A program made the translations under genes and the position numbers. Positions 4,610 to 46,959 of a stretch of DNA of 64,000 nucleotides are shown in pieces. Within the stretch, counting starts at the first letter, position 1. Each line of letters opens with the position of its first letter. Origin of the DNA: Massilia sp. H6 (lineage in GTDB: Bacteria; Pseudomonadota; Gammaproteobacteria; Burkholderiales; Burkholderiaceae_D); contig NZ_CP103371.1 of NCBI RefSeq assembly GCF_024802625.1, positions 1,984,001 to 2,048,000 of the forward strand, written 5' to 3'. The notes beneath the pieces are model-generated. The model was not told the DNA's origin and did no database searches. It worked only from the letters and a program-made list of their open reading frames with translations.

Positions 4610-4700
<91 letters not shown>

Positions 4701-5201: not shown

Positions 5202-5292
<91 letters not shown>

Positions 5293-37029: not shown

Positions 37030-37674
37030 TTACGCTAATTTCAATCCGGAATGACTCAATAACAGCACCTTGTCGGCCATTGCGGCGGCGGCATGCGAGT
37101 GGGTCACCATGATGGCGCCGGCACCGCTGGCACGGGTTTCCTGGCGCAACAGGCCGAGGATGACGGCGGCGGTGTCCGGATCGAGGTTGCCGGTCGGTTC
37201 GTCGGCCAGCAGCAGCGCCGGCCGGTGTACCAGGGCGCGCGCGATCGCTACCCGCTGCAGCTCGCCACCGGAGAGCTGGCGCGGGAAGTCGTCGCCGCGG
37301 CCCTGCAGTCCGACTGCCGCCAGCATGTCGTCGGCGCGGCCAGCCGGTTCGTGGTTCAGCAGCAAGGGCAGCGCCACGTTCTGGCGCAGCGTCAGGTGCG
37401 GCAGCACATGGAAGGCCTGAAAAATGAAGCCCATGCGGGTGCGGCGCAGGCGCGTGGCAGCCGCGTCATCGAGCGCCGACATCGGTATGCCGTCGACGAT
37501 CACCTGGCCGCTGTCAGGGGCATCCAGGCCCGCGATGAGGTTCAGCAGCGTTGACTTGCCGACCCCCGACTCGCCCATGATGGCGACGAACTCGCCGCCT
37601 TGAAAGGCATGCGAGAGCCTGGACAGCACCGCGCGGCCGCCATAGGATTTGTTCAGGTTATCGAGGACGAGCAT
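37030..37674 (-). CDS. ABC transporter ATPase of the LolD/MacB type, no permease in sight
   Basis: A 214-residue ATPase. Walker A GESGVGKST, Q-loop FIFQAFHVLP, signature LSGGELQRVAIARAL, Walker B LLLADEPTGNLD, H-loop VTHSH. The short length and these sequences place it with LolD/MacB/FtsE-like ATPases that work with FtsX-type permeases, not with import permeases. No such permease is present. It lies 60 bases downstream of the second PhnE-like gene on the same strand, so may belong to that transcript. Confidence 0.88.
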   Translation of the reverse strand: MLVLDNLNKSYGGRAVLSRLSHAFQGGEFVAIMGESGVGKSTLLNLIAGLDAPDSGQVIVDGIPMSALDDAAATRLRRTRMGFIFQAFHVLPHLTLRQNVALPLLLNHEPAGRADDMLAAVGLQGRGDDFPRQLSGGELQRVAIARALVHRPALLLADEPTGNLDPDTAAVILGLLRQETRASGAGAIMVTHSHAAAAMADKVLLLSHSGLKLA

Positions 37675-37734: not shown

Positions 37735-38538
37735 TTAACGTGTGAGAGCGCGGCGCAACGCGTAGCTGGCCGCGTCGACCATCGCCACCAGCACCAGCAT
37801 CGCGAGCACGACCGTGGCCGCGCTTTCCATCTGGAACAGCGACAGGTGGTACTTGAGCATCTGGCCCAGGCCGCCCGCCCCGACCACACCCAGCACCGCT
37901 GCCGCGCGGATATTATTCTCCCAGCGGTACAGCGCATACGAGAGCATTTGCGGCAGCGCCTGCGGCAGCGTCGCGTAAAGAAAGGCCGCCAGCGGCGCGG
38001 CGCCGTTGCTGCGCAGCGTGTGTTCCGGCAGCGGCGCGACGTTTTCCAGGGCGTCGGCGAACAGGCGTCCCAGCACCCCGGTCGTGTGCACGGCCAAGGC
38101 CAGGGTGCCGGCGAACGGCCCGAGTCCGGCCGCGACCAGCAGCAGCGAAGCCCAGACCAGCTCCGGGATCGAGCGCAGCACGTTGAGCAGGGCGCGCACG
38201 GTGGCGCGCAGGCTCCCGCCCATGCGACCCGAGGCGGGCAGGGCCAGCGCCAGGCCGCCCGCCGCCGCCAGCAGGGTGCCGATCGCCGACATGGCCAGGG
38301 TCTCCCACAGCGCGCCGGCCGTCTTTTTCAGGAAAGCCGGCGCGGTGTCGGGCGGCGCGAAGCCGGCCAGGAATTCGCTGACTGATGCCAGCGCTTCGGG
38401 CGCGAAGAAAGCGGCCCATTGCAGCGGCAAGGTCGCGAAGCTGGCCACGACCAGCGCCACCAGCCCAGCCAGCAGCAAGGCCGTGCCGGGCGAGCGCGCA
38501 GGCGCAGGCGGCAGCGTGTCGGGTGGCTGCGGTGTCAT
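37735..38538 (-). CDS. PhnE-type ABC permease 2 (candidate selenium oxyanion importer)
   Basis: A 267-residue permease with about six spans and the BPD permease loop (GAGGLGQMLKYHLSLF). It belongs to the PhnE family. Its ATG overlaps the stop of the upstream permease gene (ATGA, 38535-38538), so the two are translated together. The two permeases, one ATPase and one binding protein form a complete importer. Phosphonate (Phn) degradation genes are absent, whereas selenium genes are near, so selenate/selenite or a related oxyanion is the better guess. Confidence 0.82.
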   Translation of the reverse strand: MTPQPPDTLPPAPARSPGTALLLAGLVALVVASFATLPLQWAAFFAPEALASVSEFLAGFAPPDTAPAFLKKTAGALWETLAMSAIGTLLAAAGGLALALPASGRMGGSLRATVRALLNVLRSIPELVWASLLLVAAGLGPFAGTLALAVHTTGVLGRLFADALENVAPLPEHTLRSNGAAPLAAFLYATLPQALPQMLSYALYRWENNIRAAAVLGVVGAGGLGQMLKYHLSLFQMESAATVVLAMLVLVAMVDAASYALRRALTR

Positions 38539-39383
38539 CCGAGCCTCCGGCGTAGCAGTTTCGAGACCAGGTCGGCCAGCGCCACCAGCAGCACGAACAT
38601 GATCAGCATGGTGGCGACTTCGCCGCCGGCCATCATTTTGGTCGATTCATCCATGCGCTGGCCTAGGCCGCCGGCGCCCACGAAGCCCATCACCGCGGAG
38701 CCGCGGATTGCGCATTCCCAGCGATACACGGTATACGACACCAGTTCGGCCGACGATTCCGGCAAGGCGCCGTAGAGCAGCGCGGGCAGGCGCCCGGCGC
38801 CGTTCGCGAGCAAGGCCTCGGTCGCCTGGGCATCGCTCGATTCAAGGATTTCGGCGTATACCTTGGCCAGCATGCCGCAATAGGTCAGCGCAATGGCGAG
38901 CACGCCGGCGGTCGGCCCGAGGCCGACGATGCGCACGAATAGCAGCGCCCATACCAGCTCCGGCACACTGCGCAGCAGCACCAGTACCCAGCGCAGCAGC
39001 TGGCGCAGCAGTTTGGCGCCCAGACGCATGCGGCCGGTGCCCAGGCGCGATACCGACAGCCGCTCGGTAACCGCCAGCGTGGCCGGGATAGCGCCCAGCA
39101 GCGCCAGACTCAGGCCGGCAGTGGCGATCGCCACGGTCTGCCAGGTCTCGCGCAGCACCATCGCCAGGAATTCGGCGCCCAGGGCAGGGCGCAGGAAATC
39201 GCGCAGGAACATGCCTGCCGCCGCCAGGCTGAGCGGGTCGAACAAAGTCCAGGGCTTGAATTCGCTCGCCACCAGCATCGGCCACAGCAGGGCCAGGCAG
39301 ACAATGGTGGCCATGACGCGGCCGCGCCAGGCCGGGTCTGGATGGCGGTGGCTGGCCGTGGCGGCGCTCGGTGCCGCTCGCAT
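38535..39383 (-). CDS. PhnE-type ABC permease 1
   Basis: A 282-residue permease, paralogous to the neighbour (shared FVGAGGLGQRM loop and six to seven spans). Start set at 39383, whose A is the last base of the phnC-like stop (TGATG); an in-frame extension further upstream would lie inside the ATPase gene and is Arg-rich shadow. Two distinct permeases instead of one homodimer is also known in some phosphonate/phosphite systems. Confidence 0.82.
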   Translation of the reverse strand: MRAAPSAATASHRHPDPAWRGRVMATIVCLALLWPMLVASEFKPWTLFDPLSLAAAGMFLRDFLRPALGAEFLAMVLRETWQTVAIATAGLSLALLGAIPATLAVTERLSVSRLGTGRMRLGAKLLRQLLRWVLVLLRSVPELVWALLFVRIVGLGPTAGVLAIALTYCGMLAKVYAEILESSDAQATEALLANGAGRLPALLYGALPESSAELVSYTVYRWECAIRGSAVMGFVGAGGLGQRMDESTKMMAGGEVATMLIMFVLLVALADLVSKLLRRRLG

Positions 39384-40201
39384 CAGAAACAGGCGCCGAT
39401 CGCGATCCGCTCCGGTGCTTCGTGCGCATGCACGGGGGCCGGCTGGACGTGCTCGTTGTCGTAGAGCGCGGCGATCATGGCATCGGTCACGCGCTCGCGC
39501 GGCGCATCGAACACGATGCGGCCCGCGCGCAGTCCGACCAGGCGCGGAAAGTGGGCGCGCGCCAGTTCGACCTGGTGCAGGCTGCACACCAGCGTGGCCT
39601 TGCGTTCGCGCGCTTCCTGCTGCAGTGCCGCCAGTGTATGCAGCGACAGGGCGGGGTCGAGCGCGGAAATCGGTTCGTCGACCAGAAAAGCTTCGGCACT
39701 CGAGAGCATCAGGCGCGCCAGGGCGCAGCGCTGGCGTTCGCCGCCCGAGAGGCGGTCGACGCGCGCATACAGCTTGTCGCCCAGGCCAAAACGCGCCAGG
39801 GCGGCGTGCGCTGCAGCCGGATCAGAGGGGCGCACCAGCGAGGCCAAGGCGCGCCAGAAGCCCATGTGCGGCAGGCGCGCCGCCAGCACGGCGGTGACCA
39901 CGCGCTGGCGCGGCGGCAACGGCGGCGTTTGGGGAGCCAGGAACAGGCGCGCGCGCAGGCGATGGCGCGCCGCCTGCGATAGCGCCCACGGGTCTTGCCC
40001 GAACACGGAAAAGCGTCCTTCGGCGGGGCGCTGGGCACAGGCAAGGGTGGCGAGCAGGGTGGTCTTGCCGGCGCCGGAGGGGCCGACCAGCGCCAGCTGC
40101 TCGCCGGGTTCGATGACCAGGTCGAGCGCATGCAGGGCGGGGGCCGCACCGGGCCCCGCCACCAGGTGGCGCACCGTGAGTTGCTCGAGCCGGAAACTCA
40201 T
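39383..40201 (-). CDS. PhnC-type ABC import ATPase
   Basis: A 272-residue ATPase: Walker A GPSGAGKTT, signature LSGGERQRCALARL, Walker B AFLVDEPISALDP, H-loop CSLHQVE. The sequence around ALDPALS and LVCSLHQVELA is typical of PhnC. Overlaps the next permease start by one base. Energises the PhnE-like pair. Confidence 0.85.
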   Translation of the reverse strand: MSFRLEQLTVRHLVAGPGAAPALHALDLVIEPGEQLALVGPSGAGKTTLLATLACAQRPAEGRFSVFGQDPWALSQAARHRLRARLFLAPQTPPLPPRQRVVTAVLAARLPHMGFWRALASLVRPSDPAAAHAALARFGLGDKLYARVDRLSGGERQRCALARLMLSSAEAFLVDEPISALDPALSLHTLAALQQEARERKATLVCSLHQVELARAHFPRLVGLRAGRIVFDAPRERVTDAMIAALYDNEHVQPAPVHAHEAPERIAIGACF

Positions 40202-40221
40202 GGCAAGGCTGGCCGGTGCGC

Positions 40222-41109
40222 TTACTTCAGCAGGCCGGCATTGCGCGCCGCAGCTTCGATGTCGGCGTAGTTCGACGCCTTGGTCGGGATGAACTTCGTC
40301 GCGCGTTGCAGTTCCAGGATCTGCTTGCCTTCAGGCGTGGCCGGGTCCAGTGCCAGGAAGGCGTCGCTGATCTTCTTCTTCAGGGCGGGGTTCATGCTGC
40401 TGTGGACCGACCAGTTGTAGTCGAAATAGCCCGGGGTGGTGTAGAACACGCGCACTGCCTTCGGATCGACCTTGTTGGCTTCGACCAGCTTGTCCCACAC
40501 CGACATATTCAGCGCGCCGGCATCGACCTTGCCGCCAGCTACTGCGGCGGCCGTGGCGTCATGCGCGCCCGAGTAGGCGATACGCTTGAGGTCAGTGTCC
40601 GGGTTGACCTTGGCTGCCAGCAAATAAGAGCGCGGCATCAGGTGGCCCGAGGTCGACGATTCCGAACCGAACGACAGGGTCTTGCCTTTCAGGTCTTCGA
40701 GTTTGGTGATGGCCGGATTGGTAGTGATGAACACCGAGCGGAACTTTTCGTCTTCGACACGCTGCACCAGCGGCGTCACCATGCCTTTGCTGCGCACGTT
40801 CGCTTGCACGAAGGTGAAGCCGCCGAACCAGACCATGTCGATCTTGCGGTTGACCAGGCCTTCGACCGAGGCGGCATAGTCGGTTACCGGGGTGAACTCG
40901 ACCTTCAGGCCGGTGGCCCGGGACAGGTAGTCGCCCAGCGGCTTGAATTTTCGCTGCAGCTCGGTTGGCGCTTCGTCGGGGATGGCCGACACGCGCAGGA
41001 CACCGGGAGTGTTCTGGGCATGGGCGGCGCCGGCGGCGACCATCAGGCCGGCCGTGGCGGTGGCTGCGAACAGGGTTTTCAGGACACGCAATGGCGAGAA
41101 CGATGTCAT
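40222..41109 (-). CDS. PhnD-like periplasmic binding protein (candidate selenate ABC transporter component)
   Basis: A 295-residue binding protein with a signal peptide ending AAHAQ. It has the PhnD/PtxB family pattern (VSAIPDEAPTELQRKFKPL, TDYAASVEGLVNRKIDMVW, GSESSTSGHLMPRSYL). Proteins of this type next to selD/egtB-like genes are often named putative selenate-binding. The ligand cannot be read from sequence. First gene of the importer operon, divergent from egtD over a 213-base gap, so both could answer to one signal. Confidence 0.85.
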   Translation of the reverse strand: MTSFSPLRVLKTLFAATATAGLMVAAGAAHAQNTPGVLRVSAIPDEAPTELQRKFKPLGDYLSRATGLKVEFTPVTDYAASVEGLVNRKIDMVWFGGFTFVQANVRSKGMVTPLVQRVEDEKFRSVFITTNPAITKLEDLKGKTLSFGSESSTSGHLMPRSYLLAAKVNPDTDLKRIAYSGAHDATAAAVAGGKVDAGALNMSVWDKLVEANKVDPKAVRVFYTTPGYFDYNWSVHSSMNPALKKKISDAFLALDPATPEGKQILELQRATKFIPTKASNYADIEAAARNAGLLK

Positions 41110-41212
41110 ATCGGGCTTTCGTGAGTGTAAATACTGGAAATGGGATGAACCGTAGGCATCACGCCGGGATCACGTTCGCGTGTCAGGCGAATGCAGCAAA
41201 AGACTGGATTCC

Positions 41213-41223
41213 GCTATGATAGC
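41213..41223. promoter_or_regulatory. Possible promoter element in the egtD / importer gap
   Basis: GCTATGATAGC is an 11-base palindrome around TATGAT, which may be the -10 for egtD (about 108 bases upstream of its start). No good -35 is seen. The remaining gap shows no further clear repeats. Confidence 0.3.
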
Positions 41224-41322
41224 TAAAACGGCAACTCCGACCCGGTAATAGAATCTGCAACTGAATCGGCAAGCACATCGGCAACCCTTTGCCACGACGC
41301 ATGGTGCGAAGTGGCGGCACGA

Positions 41323-42318
41323 ATGATAACGCTTATGTACACCTCCTGCACACAAGACCCGCCGCGCGCCGCCAATGCCCACGTCGCAAACGAGCTGCAT
41401 GCCGGGCTCGAGGCGCGCGACGCCTGGATTTCGCCCAAGTTTCTGTACGACGCGCTCGGCTCCAAGCTGTTCGAAGCCATCTGCGAATTGCCCGAGTACT
41501 ACCCGACCCGCACCGAGGCTGCGATCTTTGCGCGCCATGGCGCCGAGATCGCGCACGCGGCCGGGTCAGGCACCACCCTGATCGACCTTGGCGCCGGCAA
41601 CTGCGCCAAGGCCGCTTCGTTGTTCCCGCTGCTCGCGCCGGCCCAGTACGTGGCGGTCGACATCTCCGCCGAATTCCTGAACGACGCGCTGGGCCGGCTG
41701 CGCCAGCGCTTCCCGCAGATCGCCATGGAAGGGTTAGGCATGGATTTCTCGACGCGCTTTGAACTGCCGCCCTCGGTTGCGGCCGGGCGGCGCCTGTTTT
41801 TCTACCCCGGCTCTTCGCTCGGCAATTTCACGCCCGACGAAGCGCAAGGCTTCCTGCGCCGCCTGCGCGGGCAGTGCGGCGACGATGGCGCAGTGCTGAT
41901 CGGCATCGACCTGGTCAAGGACAAGGCCACGCTCGACGCCGCCTATGACGACGCGCTTGGCGTCACCGCCGCCTTCAATTTAAATGCCTTGCGGCATGTA
42001 AACAAGCTAATTGGGGCCGACTTCGATATCCGTGCCTGGCGCCACCATGGGTTCTATAACGAGGCGCGCGGACGTGTCGAAATGCACCTCGAAGCGACCC
42101 GGCCCCAGCATGTGCACTGGCATGGGGGCAGCCGTCGCTTCGAGGCAGGCGACTGTATCCACACCGAGAACAGCTATAAATACCAGCAGGCCGACATGAT
42201 CGCGCTGTTGGAGCGTTCCGGATTTGAAGCCACCCGCGTGTGGACCGACCCGCAGCGCTGGTTTGCCGTTGTGCATGCCCAGGCGCGGGCAAAAGCGCAA
42301 GTCAAGGTGATCCATTGA
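41323..42318 (+). CDS. egtD: L-histidine N-alpha-methyltransferase EgtD
   Basis: Trimethylates histidine to hercynine, the shared precursor of ergothioneine and selenoneine. The 331-residue protein has the EgtD fold: SAM motif LIDLGAGNCAKA, FYPGSSLGNF with the family Asn, and the substrate-site Glu and Ser in IHTENSYKY (matching Glu282 and Ser284 of the mycobacterial enzyme). Start uncertain: GTG 41311, ATG 41323 and ATG 41335 are all in frame without a strong ribosome site. The stop overlaps the next gene's ATG by one base (TGATG), so the pair is coupled. Confidence 0.92.
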   Translation: MITLMYTSCTQDPPRAANAHVANELHAGLEARDAWISPKFLYDALGSKLFEAICELPEYYPTRTEAAIFARHGAEIAHAAGSGTTLIDLGAGNCAKAASLFPLLAPAQYVAVDISAEFLNDALGRLRQRFPQIAMEGLGMDFSTRFELPPSVAAGRRLFFYPGSSLGNFTPDEAQGFLRRLRGQCGDDGAVLIGIDLVKDKATLDAAYDDALGVTAAFNLNALRHVNKLIGADFDIRAWRHHGFYNEARGRVEMHLEATRPQHVHWHGGSRRFEAGDCIHTENSYKYQQADMIALLERSGFEATRVWTDPQRWFAVVHAQARAKAQVKVIH

Positions 42319-43592
42319 TGGGTAACGGGCAGCGCGAAGATATCCAGCACGCCTTCGGGCGGGTGCGCGAAGGCTCGCTCGCAATCGCGGCGCCACTCTC
42401 GGGCGAAGACTGCTGCGCGCAATCGATGCCGGACACCAGTCCGGTGAAATGGCATCTGGCACACACTACCTGGTTCTTTGAAACCTTTGTCCTCGAGCCG
42501 CACGAAGCCGGCTTCGCGCCCTTCCATCCTGCGTTCAGGGTGCTGTTCAATTCGTATTACAACGGCATCGGCGCCAAACATCCGCGCCCGCAGCGCGGCC
42601 TGCTCACCCGGCCTTCGCTGCACGAGGTACTGGACTACCGCGCCGACGTCGACCGTCGTGTCGTACAGTTGGCGGCACGCAGTACCGACCCGGCCATCGT
42701 CGCGCTGATCGAACTTGGCCTGCAGCACGAGCAGCAGCACCAGGAATTGATGCTGACCGACCTCAAGCACCTGCTGGCCCAGAACCCGATGTTCCCGGCT
42801 TATTCTGCGCAAGACATGGAGCAAGACATGGCGCAGGATCTGCACCAGGATCTGCGCAAGGACCCGGACGCTGCCTTGGCGCCGGGGGCGCCAGCGTGGA
42901 TCGAGTTCGATGGCGGCCTGGCCGAGATCGGTTTCAACGGCCGCGGTTTTTGTTTCGATCACGAACTGCCGCGTCACAGCACCTATATCGCGCCCTTCGA
43001 ACTGGCCTCGCGCCTGGTCACCAATGGCGAGTACCGCGCCTTTATCGACGCCGGTGGCTACCGCGATCCCGCACTCTGGCTGGCCGAAGGTTGGGACCGC
43101 GTGGCCACCGGCGAGCTCTTGCATCCGCTCTACTGGCTGGTCGACGAAGCCGGAAACTGGAGCGAATTTACGCTGCATGGGGTGCAAGCGCTCAATCCCG
43201 ACCTGCCGGTTACCCACCTGTCACTGTTCGAAGCTGATGCTTATGCACGCTGGTGCGGTGTACGTCTGCCGACTGAGTCCGAATGGGAATTCGCGGCACG
43301 CCAGGCCGCCCTTGCCGAGGGCGCGCTGCATCCGGCGGCTGCCAACGGCGATGGCTTGCAGCAGATGTTCGGCGCCTGCTGGCAATGGACCAGCAGCAGC
43401 TATGCGCCGTATCCGGGCTATGCCCCTGCACCCGGCGTCATCGGCGAGTACAACGGCAAATTCATGGTCAACCAATATGTGCTGCGCGGCTCGTCCTGTG
43501 CCACGCCCGATGGGCATGCGCGTGCCAGTTACCGCAATTTTTTCCCGGCAGGCGCCCGTTGGCAGTTTTCCGGGATTAGGTTGGCTCGATGA
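42318..43592 (+). CDS. senA: EgtB-type sulfoxide/selenoxide synthase, likely selenoneine synthase SenA
   Basis: A 424-residue non-haem iron enzyme. N-terminal DinB-like domain with the iron motif HEQQHQE (about residues 142-148), an upstream His in KWHLAHTTWFF, and a C-terminal formylglycine-synthase fold ending in RASYRNFFPAGARW. EgtB joins hercynine to gamma-Glu-Cys or Cys; SenA joins it to a selenosugar. The fold does not separate them by eye, but linked senB- and selD-type genes and the absence of egtC/egtE/egtA favour SenA. A repeat-like acidic insert (QDMEQDMAQDLHQDLRKD) lies between the domains. AAGGTGA supports the start. Confidence 0.85.
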   Translation: MGNGQREDIQHAFGRVREGSLAIAAPLSGEDCCAQSMPDTSPVKWHLAHTTWFFETFVLEPHEAGFAPFHPAFRVLFNSYYNGIGAKHPRPQRGLLTRPSLHEVLDYRADVDRRVVQLAARSTDPAIVALIELGLQHEQQHQELMLTDLKHLLAQNPMFPAYSAQDMEQDMAQDLHQDLRKDPDAALAPGAPAWIEFDGGLAEIGFNGRGFCFDHELPRHSTYIAPFELASRLVTNGEYRAFIDAGGYRDPALWLAEGWDRVATGELLHPLYWLVDEAGNWSEFTLHGVQALNPDLPVTHLSLFEADAYARWCGVRLPTESEWEFAARQAALAEGALHPAAANGDGLQQMFGACWQWTSSSYAPYPGYAPAPGVIGEYNGKFMVNQYVLRGSSCATPDGHARASYRNFFPAGARWQFSGIRLAR

Positions 43593-43602
43593 GCTTGGCT
43601 AG

Positions 43603-44547
43603 ATGGTAGGCTCGATAAAGCGCCGCAGTTGGCGCGAACGCCTGATGGACCAGCGCGCCAATGTGTACGTGCTGGCCCATCCGCTGGCGTTCACCTTGCA
43701 GGTGCTGCGCGGTTTTCGTGCCAACCAGGGCCTGCTGCTGGCCGGCGCCGTGGCCTATTATGCGCTGCTGTCGATCGTGCCCTTCCTGATGCTCGTGGTG
43801 GTGGCGCTGTCGCACTTCATCCACCAGGGCGAGCTGCTCGAGACGCTGCACCGTTACCTCAAGCTCCTGATGCCGGGACAGTCTGAATCGATTGTCGCCG
43901 AGGTCGCGAATTTCCTCGATAACCGCGACCTGATTACCTGGCTGCTGGGCGGCACCATGCTGTTCTTTAGCTCGTTCGCGTTCACGGTGCTGGAAAACGC
44001 GATGAGCGTGATCTTCAAGCACCGGGTCGAGATTTCGCGCCGCCATTTTCTGGTGTCGGCAGTGCTTCCTTACTGCTATATCCTGGCGCTTGGGGTTGGG
44101 GTCATGATCATCACCCTGGTAGCAGGGACCCTGGAAGTGCTGGGCGAGGAAAGCGTCTGGCTGTTCGGTTACGAATGGTCGCTCAATGGTGTCTCGGGCG
44201 TGCTGCTTTACTTGCTCGGACTGCTCGGCGAGATCCTGGTGTTGACCTCGATCTACCTGGTCATGCCGGTAGGACGGCTGTCGGTCTGGCATGCCCTGAT
44301 CGGCGGCGTGACCGCGACCTTGCTGTGGGAAATGGCGCGTCACATCCTGGTCTGGTATTTCTCCACCTTATCCCAGGTAAACGTCGTATACGGTTCGATG
44401 ACGACCGCGATCGTGGTCATGTTCAGTCTGGAGATCGGGGCAACCCTGCTGCTGCTCGGTGCCCAGGTGATCGCCGAATACGAGCGGGTGGGGCAGGGGC
44501 AGGCCAACGAGCCGCCCGAGCCCTTGACCACGCTTCCCCAGGCTTGA
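43603..44547 (+). CDS. YihY/BrkB family inner-membrane protein
   Basis: A 314-residue protein with about six spans, in the UPF0761/BrkB family (AYYALLSIVPFLML, GLLGEILVLTSIYLVMP, YGSMTTAIVVMF). These were once misnamed RNase BN. Function is unknown; some members help survival in serum or stress. It starts ten bases after senA on the same strand, hence probably in the same transcript. Whether it has a role in selenoneine handling or is a passenger is open. Confidence 0.9.
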   Translation: MVGSIKRRSWRERLMDQRANVYVLAHPLAFTLQVLRGFRANQGLLLAGAVAYYALLSIVPFLMLVVVALSHFIHQGELLETLHRYLKLLMPGQSESIVAEVANFLDNRDLITWLLGGTMLFFSSFAFTVLENAMSVIFKHRVEISRRHFLVSAVLPYCYILALGVGVMIITLVAGTLEVLGEESVWLFGYEWSLNGVSGVLLYLLGLLGEILVLTSIYLVMPVGRLSVWHALIGGVTATLLWEMARHILVWYFSTLSQVNVVYGSMTTAIVVMFSLEIGATLLLLGAQVIAEYERVGQGQANEPPEPLTTLPQA

Positions 44548-44674
44548 AGATCTCGATCGCTACCGGTTGCGCTTCATCAATTTAAGGCAGTAACGGCAGT
44601 GGCACAGTAGGCGCTTGCGCTCGCAGATTGGGCAAGCTCAAGCGGGCGCCAGATCAACCTAGCCGGGAGATGTC

Positions 44675-44875
44675 ATGAGCCAAACCGTCGCCTTCGTCCT
44701 GCCCTTGCCGGTCGCGATTGCGCTCGCTGCGCTGCTGCTGGTGCTGGTCGGACTAAGCGCGCTTGCGGTGTCACTGCACCAGTCGGCCCCGGTGCGTGTT
44801 CCGGAGCAGGGGCGTCAAGGCCAGGGCCAGGGCCAGGACCCGGACCCCGAGCGCGACCCGCGCGCGCTTAGCTGA
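44675..44875 (+). CDS. Small single-span membrane protein
   Basis: A 66-residue protein: one membrane span (VAIALAALLLVLVGLSALAV) and a Gln/Gly/Asp-rich tail (QGRQGQGQGQDPDPERDP). GGGAGA lies 4 bases before the ATG. Its stop codon overlaps the end of the convergent selD gene by eight bases. No family recognised. Too short for most gene finders, but the ribosome site and span support it. Confidence 0.6.
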   Translation: MSQTVAFVLPLPVAIALAALLLVLVGLSALAVSLHQSAPVRVPEQGRQGQGQGQDPDPERDPRALS

Positions 44876-45923
44876 CGCTCACGCGCGCCTGGCCCGCATC
44901 CATGCGGCCAATGATTGCGGCATCGCCAAAACCTTCGCGCGTGAACAGCGCCAACACGTCGTCGCTACTGGCCGGGTCGCAGGCGACCAGCAGGCCGCCC
45001 GAGGTCTGCGGATCGGTCAGCAGCGCCTGCTGCGCCGGCGTGATGCCAGCGCTCAGGGTAACGTCCTTGCCGTAGGCGTCCCAGTTGCGGCTGGAAGCGC
45101 CGGTGACGAAGCCGTCCTGTGCCAGGTGCAGTACGTTCGGCAGCAGCGGCACCTTGTCCATGTCGAGGCGGGCCGCAAGCTTGGCGCCGCGCGCCAGTTC
45201 CAGCAGGTGGCCGAGCAGGCCAAAGCCGGTGACGTCGGTCAGCGCATGCACACCCGGCATCTCGGCCAGCGCCTTGCCCGGTTTGTTCAATTTGGTGGTA
45301 TTGGCGATCATCGCGGCATAGCCATCGGGGCCGAGTGCATCTTTCTTGAGCGCGGCCGATAGCACACCCACGCCAAGCGGTTTGCCGAGGATGAGCACGT
45401 CTCCGGGGCGTGCGCCGGCATTACTCTTGACCTTGGACGGGTGCACCAGGCCCAGCACTACCAGGCCGTAGATCGGTTCCACCGAATCAATGGTGTGGCC
45501 GCCCGCGATCGGGATACCGGCTTCGGCGCAGATCGATTCGCCGCCGCGGATGATCTCGCCGATGGTTTCGAGGGGAAGCTTGTTGACTGGCATGCCAACC
45601 AGCGCCAGTGCCATGATCGGCGTGCCGCCCATGGCATAGACGTCCGAGATCGCATTGGTTGCCGCGATGCGGCCGAAGTCGAAGGCGTCGTCCACGATCG
45701 GCATGAAGAAGTCGGTAGTAGCGATCAGTGCCTGCTCGTCGTTGAGCTTGTAGACGGCCGCGTCGTCGGCGGTCTCGATGCCCACCATCAGCTCTTTTGG
45801 TATCGGAAACCCTTTTGATTTCCCCAGGATTTCGGCCAGCACGCCTGGCGCGATCTTGCAGCCGCAACCGCCGCCATGCGAGAACGAAGTAAGTTTGATG
45901 GGTTGGTCAGGCGTCGTGCTCAT
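44868..45923 (-). CDS. selD: Selenide, water dikinase (SelD; SenC in selenoneine clusters)
   Basis: Makes selenophosphate from selenide and ATP. The 351-residue protein has the catalytic loop GGGCGCK (Cys rather than selenocysteine), the ATP site DDAAVY and DFFMPIVDD, and GGHTIDS. Start codon is not preceded by a Shine-Dalgarno; the bases just upstream (CCTCCC) are anti-SD-like. It follows the glycosyltransferase gene by 49 bases on the same strand. SelD also feeds selenocysteine or selenouridine synthesis; no selA, selB, selU or ybbB is in the window. Confidence 0.95.
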   Translation of the reverse strand: MSTTPDQPIKLTSFSHGGGCGCKIAPGVLAEILGKSKGFPIPKELMVGIETADDAAVYKLNDEQALIATTDFFMPIVDDAFDFGRIAATNAISDVYAMGGTPIMALALVGMPVNKLPLETIGEIIRGGESICAEAGIPIAGGHTIDSVEPIYGLVVLGLVHPSKVKSNAGARPGDVLILGKPLGVGVLSAALKKDALGPDGYAAMIANTTKLNKPGKALAEMPGVHALTDVTGFGLLGHLLELARGAKLAARLDMDKVPLLPNVLHLAQDGFVTGASSRNWDAYGKDVTLSAGITPAQQALLTDPQTSGGLLVACDPASSDDVLALFTREGFGDAAIIGRMDAGQARVSVS

Positions 45924-45972
45924 AGGGAGGTCCAGTCGTTGATAGGGGGGGCGCCGGGCGCAAAATGACAGC

Positions 45973-46959
45973 TCATGTCAAGAGATTATCCACCAGTTCG
46001 CGCAACGCCGCTTGTTCGGTCGCCGGAGCGAACAGGGCGGCTCGGGCCGCGCACTGGCGCCGCAGCAGGGCGTCGAAGCCCGCGTCGCCAATGCAGCGAT
46101 CGATCATGCGCGCCAGCGCGGCCGCGTCACCGGCCGCGAAATAGCCGGCGTAGTCTGCGCCGAGCATGCCGCGATTGCCGCTGATGTCCGAGGCCAGTAC
46201 CGGCACGCCGCTGGTGACTGCCTCGATGATGACGTTGGCGCCGCCTTCCATGGCCGAGCTGATCGCCATCGCATGACAGCGCTTGAGGCGCTGGCGCGTG
46301 GCCGCGTGCGGCAGGGGCCCGAGCCAGCGGTAGCGCGGGTTGTCCGCTTGCGCGGCAATGGCGGCTTCGCCCAGCGCAGGCTCGAGCGCCGCGCCGATGT
46401 GGATCAGGCGCGCGGCAGGATGCTGGACCAGGCCGGCGGCGCGGATAAACGCCAGCGGGTCTTTTTCCGGGCGCAAGTGGCCGACCATGCAGATGTCGGC
46501 GAAGCGGGCCGTGCCCCTGCGCCGGTAAGGCTGCAATGACGGCGCCGACTGGTAGATGACCCGCGCCTTGGCGTGGAAACGGGGCGGCAGCAGCGCCAGT
46601 CCGGCGGGCTGCAGCAGCACTAGTGCCCCCGCCAGTTCCAGCGAAGCGGCCGCCTCGGGAGCGCTTGCGATGTCGCGGTACAGGTCGGTCCCGGTCAACA
46701 CCAGCACGCTCGGCCTGTCGGGATGGGCGGCGCTGAACGCGGCCAGCGACGCGGCCGAGCGACGCGCGTGCAGCGCGATCATCAGGTCGGGGTGTTCGTT
46801 GCCGACCAGTTCCTCGCTGGCCGGCCAGTGGCCGGCAATGCGCACGTCGTAGCCGCCAGCAGCCGCGCGCAGGAAACGCGCCCAGCGGCTGGCGGTCTGC
46901 CAGTTGCCATTGTTGTCCCGCGCACCGGCGGGGCTGACGATCAGGATTCGCTTGCGCAC
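45973..46959 (-). CDS. senB: Selenosugar synthase SenB-like glycosyltransferase
   Basis: A 328-residue GT-B glycosyltransferase. The N-terminal KRILIVSPAG and then DNNGNWQTASRWARFLR are, to my knowledge, characteristic of the SenB family, which joins selenophosphate to UDP-GlcNAc/UDP-sugar. The donor-site EGGANVIIEA and VPVLASDISGNRG are typical GT-B. GTG start at 46959 assumed, because the upstream in-frame part (56 residues) is Arg/Pro-rich shadow. Forms an operon with selD; a terminator at 47083-47110 isolates it from the helicase. The link is family-plus-context evidence, not proof of activity. Confidence 0.85.
   Translation of the reverse strand: MRKRILIVSPAGARDNNGNWQTASRWARFLRAAAGGYDVRIAGHWPASEELVGNEHPDLMIALHARRSAASLAAFSAAHPDRPSVLVLTGTDLYRDIASAPEAAASLELAGALVLLQPAGLALLPPRFHAKARVIYQSAPSLQPYRRRGTARFADICMVGHLRPEKDPLAFIRAAGLVQHPAARLIHIGAALEPALGEAAIAAQADNPRYRWLGPLPHAATRQRLKRCHAMAISSAMEGGANVIIEAVTSGVPVLASDISGNRGMLGADYAGYFAAGDAAALARMIDRCIGDAGFDALLRRQCAARAALFAPATEQAALRELVDNLLT

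Follow-up and report, generated by a model that had tools for sequence, protein, structure and literature searches.

A Massilia locus joining predicted ergothioneine and selenosugar operons with a candidate selenium importer, its senA lying far away

We analyzed a 64,000-nucleotide stretch of the Massilia sp. H6 genome (contig NZ_CP103371.1, positions 1,984,001 to 2,048,000; hereafter the window), in which positions 37735 to 46959 hold a block of genes for ergothioneine and selenium metabolism. The block is best read as a two-branch antioxidant and selenium system, with an ergothioneine branch, a selenosugar branch and an importer for a selenium oxyanion, from which selenoneine would be made only by way of an unlinked senA gene; we put the probability of this reading at roughly 75%. 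It starts from observed features: which genes are present according to family models, how many copies of each there are, where senA lies, and a layout that recurs among related genomes. EgtD would make hercynine, which EgtB would channel to ergothioneine; SelD would make selenophosphate, from which SenB would form a selenosugar with a UDP-sugar. The PhnD-C-E-E transporter would import the oxyanion, most likely selenite, for SelD, and selenoneine would arise only if the product of senA, encoded about 1.95 Mb away, used the selenosugar together with the shared hercynine. Substrates, products, transport and joint hercynine use are predicted. The pathway is of a known kind, here in dispersed form, and what stands out is less the layout than the way in which senA has been lost and scattered: although they have been described as a single cluster, senA and senB separate repeatedly within one genus. 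A literature search on Massilia and selenoneine found no paper.

The gene at 42318-43592 had been taken for senA in the original prediction, an easy misreading that is corrected here, and by sequence comparison it is EgtB rather than SenA. Its protein scored 543.9 bits against the EgtB model TIGR03440 (cut-off 360) and 379.2 bits against the SenA model NF041186 (cut-off 420). When it was searched against the Protein Data Bank, the EgtB entries 8qf6, 6qki and 6o6l came out on top with 434 bits, and the solved SenA entries gave 103 and 100 bits. From an alignment of 38 SenA and 57 EgtB proteins we picked 53 columns that separate the two families; the protein carries the EgtB letter at 53/53 and a SenA-state residue at 0/53, a descriptive count and no independent test, the columns having come from this same alignment. 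Like the three solved EgtB proteins (whose "Cabther" label presumably stands for Chloracidobacterium thermophilum), with which it aligns over residues 8 to 424 of 425, it contains NSYY and HEQQHQEL; unlike them, it adjoins selenium genes. SenA and EgtB are homologous, with histidines aligned as H49/H137/H141 and H50/H139/H143 that we take to be the iron ligands, and H49, H137 and H141 are conserved in the locus EgtB. This homology, and the position of the gene next to egtD and near senB-selD, favour the view that it is SenA and that the entire selenoneine pathway lies in 9.5 kb. We give that view almost no probability: model scores, solved relatives and separating columns rule the protein out as a SenA, and a different gene qualifies. 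Grouping with ergothioneine EgtB had been named beforehand as the outcome that speaks against the senA assignment, and that is how the protein groups on all three counts. The claim that every chemical step is encoded within about 9.5 kb falls as well, SenA being encoded some 1.95 Mb away.

When the SenA model was run against the genome it matched three places, giving 508.8 bits at C1:79173-80345, 378.7 bits for the locus EgtB and 62 bits for a match over part of the model. Among solved proteins, the distant one (G000:C1:79173-80345; 508.8-509.2 bits against NF041186, cut-off 420) comes nearest to the SenA entries 8ryz and 8k5i, at 318 bits. Its gene and the locus are 1.95 Mb apart on the 4.25 Mb contig, or 2.30 Mb in the opposite direction should the contig be circular, so that senA is not adjacent to senB as it is in senABC clusters. 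The expectation of a full selenoneine gene set therefore holds for the genome and not for the locus itself, outside which SenA lies. Single matches in the genome were obtained for selD, egtD and the TIGR04553 binding protein, and SenB gave one match above the cut-off. MnmH was likewise matched once (355.8 bits, cut-off 219.75), and a genome search for SelA at E 1e-60 gave no match; with MnmH present and no SelA match, SelD would serve both tRNA selenouridine and SenB.

The glycosyltransferase proposed as SenB was confirmed in a check against that family. PMC10891094 gives catalytic Lys K158, N20/T23 and E231 of an EGGAHV motif for the reference enzyme; by motif, without structural alignment, the locus protein has counterparts of these residues: the Lys in RPEKDP, the Asn and Thr in NNGNWQT and the Glu in EGGANV, where the H of the motif is replaced by N. 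Compared with the Variovorax paradoxus senABC selenoneine cluster, as described in PMC9814287 and PMC10891094, the Massilia system likewise has adjacent SenB and SelD (SenC), hercynine as acceptor and a true SenA in the genome; it differs in the distance of senA and in the attached egtD-egtB operon and importer. Among 72,556 plasmid records in PLSDB, 3 match SenB at E 1e-5.

The scattering of senA was followed in a genus sample of 62 genomes (G000-G061), searched for SenB at E 1e-60 and for SenA by cut-off. SenB was found in 47 (partial and below cut-off in G025, G035 and G038), SenA above cut-off in 37 and the importer protein in 36. In the 21 of 47 SenB genomes that have no importer, senA stands beside senB in 21/21 by coordinates. 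The other 26 have the importer: SenA is present in 15 (G000, G005, G007, G008, G014, G021, G023, G025, G027, G035, G037, G042, G044, G050 and G053) and was not found in 11. senB has also been lost in 10 importer-bearing genus genomes. senA is clearly away from senB in 14 of the 15; in G050 it lies at the start of one contig and senB at the end of another, so that the two may be linked there. By eye, the unlinked genes occupy seven to nine neighbourhoods; the total turns on how G050 is treated and on whether one or two are counted for G000 and G008, where senA is near priA in both. No mobile element was seen by eye beside unlinked senA among neighbours from a crude codon-composition caller, a look with no formal test, and no senA remnant was detected at E 0.05 with seven SenA queries in the gap that runs from senB (or selD) to the helicase gene in 32 loci and the window.

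Of 31 related loci retrieved with the Massilia locus as reference, the nearest are from Massilia and Telluria. Gene order was compared by tblastn over 81 loci. The complete order importer / egtD-egtB / selD-senB / senA / helicase occurs in the outgroup genera represented by G063, G072 and G112, and yihY follows egtB in G072, G112 and most genus loci compared; the arrangement, including YihY, had been put forward as the novelty of the locus, which its recurrence across the genus does not bear out. In a SenA tree of 38 rows, 12 of the 15 proteins fall in one clade (90/98, not starred) among linked genus SenA, and those of G005, G021 and G035 form a second clade nearer the outgroups; the bootstrap of this tree had not converged. 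A quick five-gene tree took in the 57 genomes that have three or more of the genes, a broken senB being scored as present; on it SenA presence changed 12 times, SenB 4 times and the importer 3 times. By these counts, gain, relocation or loss has been more frequent for senA than for senB or the importer. Treated as a label of its own, "SenB without SenA" changed 9 times against a shuffled mean of 10.2 (86/500 shuffles as low), which is near chance. The reverse state, SenA above cut-off without SenB at E 1e-60, was met in 8/199 genomes, G066 and G108 among them. In G006 the contig breaks off within senB, next to senA. In G035 (L084/L085, across two contigs) and G038 (L086) senB is in pieces, and in G038 EgtB is also missing its N-terminal part; these features point to decay of the locus or to a break in the assembly.

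In the 11 importer genomes with SenB and no SenA found, senB is intact in 10 and broken in G038; a check of 14 genomes for full-length SenA-model matches other than EgtB gave none in these 11. Ratios of nonsynonymous to synonymous substitution rates (dN/dS) for SenB were 0.205, 0.286 and 0.278 within the SenA-less clade G010/G019/G061 and 0.243 for the SenA-less pair G047/G003, with 0.156-0.352 for pairs with SenA in both members and 0.194-0.364 for mixed pairs. SenB was less constrained than SelD in every pair, and senB in the tested SenA-less clade is under ordinary purifying selection. Strains with intact senB and no SenA found would be well suited to asking whether selenosugars serve a purpose by themselves. 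A replacement gene specific to SenA-less loci was sought among 732 unassigned open reading frames (ORFs) of 27 loci; 7 rows passed and were judged to be spurious frames or low-complexity ORFs.

The proposal that the importer carries selenium gained support from the family assignment of its binding protein (TIGR04553, 401 bits) and from its recurrent linkage to selD. Both could be placed in 70 genomes, and in 56 of these no more than 30 kb separates the importer from selD, 19 of the 56 being without SenB. Nine of these SenB-less genomes are outside the genus; binding-protein and selD starts are about 1 kb apart in eight and 6.2 kb apart in G100, and mnmH stands beside selD in 7/9. The nearest folds of the binding protein are PhnD1 and PtxB, and its pocket (D45, Y78, F123, S152, T153, S154, H183, N201, D230, Y231) is identical at 10/10 positions, hand-mapped on an alignment, to that of Pm_PhnD (D13, Y46, F90, S126-T127-S128, H158, N176, D205, Y206), residues that bind or cap phosphite according to Bisson 2017 (PMC5700983). 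Fold and pocket, Tyr cap included, are thus those of the phosphite-binding proteins in that source; the differences are the company of selD, senB or mnmH and the placement by NCBIfam in TIGR04553, the putative selenate ABC substrate-binding family. The match to phosphite-binding PhnD1 hints at selenite rather than selenate as the substrate, a departure from the family name. A literature search for TIGR04553 and similar wording found no paper naming that family, and the phrase "putative selenate ABC transporter" is used in PMC13077682. According to two reviews (PMC9312934 and PMC13188914), prokaryotes have no identified transport system that is specific for selenium and of high affinity, and the importer makes this open question testable.

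Several observations weigh against the two-branch reading. In 12/70 genomes separate contigs carry the importer and selD, and in 2/70 the two are far apart on one contig; phosphite, methylphosphonate and phosphate are the ligands of the solved proteins most closely related to the binding protein; and the curated TIGR04553 name, "putative selenate", is provisional. By motif, the locus SenB has E at the position of V157, a sugar contact in Variovorax SenB (PMC10891094), and EGGANV in place of EGGAHV, and because of these two changes its sugar preference may differ from that of the Variovorax enzyme.

SenA was found in 9/9 near-closed genomes (1-3 contigs) with intact senB and in 25/35 drafts (Fisher p 0.09; 44 genomes, with G025, G035 and G038 dropped), and all ten intact-senB genomes without SenA are drafts. 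This suits the view that SenB without SenA is a relic en route to loss, the module being functionless in those relatives, as do the importer-bearing genomes that have lost senB and the pieces left in G038 and G035. We hold this to be rather unlikely, since dN/dS in G010/G019/G061 (0.21-0.29) falls within the span of pairs with SenA on both sides (0.16-0.35) and 10/10 SenA-less genomes with a whole senB frame retain both RxEK and EGGANV. EgtB, the sole full-length SenA-model match in such genomes, might perform the reaction of SenA there; this is very doubtful, the EgtB of the ten intact-senB genomes having 0 SenA-state residues at the 53 columns and that of the decaying G038 one. As to the transporter, all ten pocket residues equal those of Pm_PhnD, so on the pocket alone phosphite would be a possible ligand, and together with the PhnD1 and PtxB folds this speaks for a phosphite or phosphate importer near selD by chance; that is fairly improbable given that the linkage repeats in several genera, with and without SenB. 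A tentative further reading, less likely than not, would treat importer, SelD and SenB as a free-standing selenite-to-selenosugar module, with a dedicated selenite importer of phosphite-type pocket, SenA and selenoneine as an optional, relocatable add-on, and the selenosugar or a derived product as the useful selenium metabolite in SenA-less strains.

Outside the genus, SenB without SenA above cut-off was found in nine genomes. In G065 a match to the SenA model (408.5 bits) lies about 1 kb away from senB, and the senB block of G193 includes a 35% SenA homologue; both genomes may be SenA bearers below the cut-off. G135, at 229 bits, is under the SenB cut-off; G132, G146, G168 and G179 have a variant GN--TA-RW stretch with selD not beside it; and in G161 and G186 senB adjoins selD. 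The SenB-family proteins of L144, L145, L147 and L148, which have the GN--TA-RW variant, have neither selD nor SenA beside them, and by eye a MotB-like ORF is near in 3/4. In another family, L137 (G193) holds SenA-like, SelD, PhnD, PhnC, PhnE, PhnE and EgtD genes with SenB opposite in about 7.5 kb, close to the all-in-one layout once imagined for the Massilia locus.

The ten locus genes were scanned against NCBIfam and Pfam, and their features are collected in Table 1. All previously given gene coordinates were confirmed, as were the SelD and EgtD identities, and the assignments by family models are solid as predictions. By these models an ergothioneine operon, egtD-egtB-yihY, and a SelD-SenB selenosugar operon face each other in the locus, with the importer alongside. 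The egtB start overlaps the egtD end via ATGA, a GTG at 41311 is a possible alternative egtD start, and yihY is likely in the same transcript as egtDB. selD and senB share one strand, convergent with egtD-egtB-yihY, and the importer genes diverge from egtD.

Table 1. Features of the locus, with positions in the window and model scores
Feature	Position	Strand	Evidence
PhnE-type permease 2 of importer	37735..38538	-	TIGR01097 244 bits, cut-off 216.7
PhnE-type permease 1	38535..39383	-	TIGR01097 188 bits, below cut-off 216.7; Pfam BPD_transp_1 above cut-off
PhnC-type ATPase	39383..40201	-	best NCBIfam TIGR02315 180 bits, below cut-off 266; Pfam ABC_tran above cut-off
PhnD-like periplasmic binding protein	40222..41109	-	TIGR04553 "putative selenate ABC" family, 401 bits, cut-off 250
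Near-palindromic -10-like element GCTATGATAGC	41213..41223	.	9/11 letters at least 85% in 39 aligned intergenic regions
25-nt leader hairpin	41291..41315	+	ends 7 nt upstream of egtD ATG
egtD, histidine N-alpha-methyltransferase (hercynine)	41323..42318	+	TIGR03438 383 bits, cut-off 291
egtB, ergothioneine sulfoxide synthase family	42318..43592	+	TIGR03440 543.9 bits, cut-off 360
YihY/BrkB membrane protein	43603..44547	+	TIGR00765 79.7 bits, cut-off 73.15; Pfam PF03631 114.6, cut-off 33.7
66-aa membrane-type ORF	44675..44875	+	weak conservation; doubtful
selD, selenide water dikinase (selenophosphate)	44868..45923	-	NF002098 540 bits, cut-off 299; TIGR00476 436 bits, cut-off 125
senB, Se-glycosyltransferase (selenosugar synthase), carries DNNGNWQTASRW	45973..46959	-	TIGR04348 402.3 bits, cut-off 300

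Between the divergent phnD and egtD, GCTATGATAGC reads as a -10 box on either strand and is a possible two-way promoter. The egtD leader hairpin was recovered by motif search in 38/57 loci (31 distinct sequences); its outer stem covaries, pair 5-21 occurring as five kinds of standard pair, and pairing was 86% compared with 26-50% when the partners were slid. It may control egtD translation or serve as an operator. A LolD/FtsE-type ATPase gene at 37030-37674 adjoins egtD also in genomes without the importer, and because it is kept there it is probably no part of the importer system. Rfam at gathering scores returned only two tRNAs in the 64-kb window; these tRNA-Ser (cga) genes, at 4610-4699 and 5202-5291, are 592 bases apart and have equal scores.

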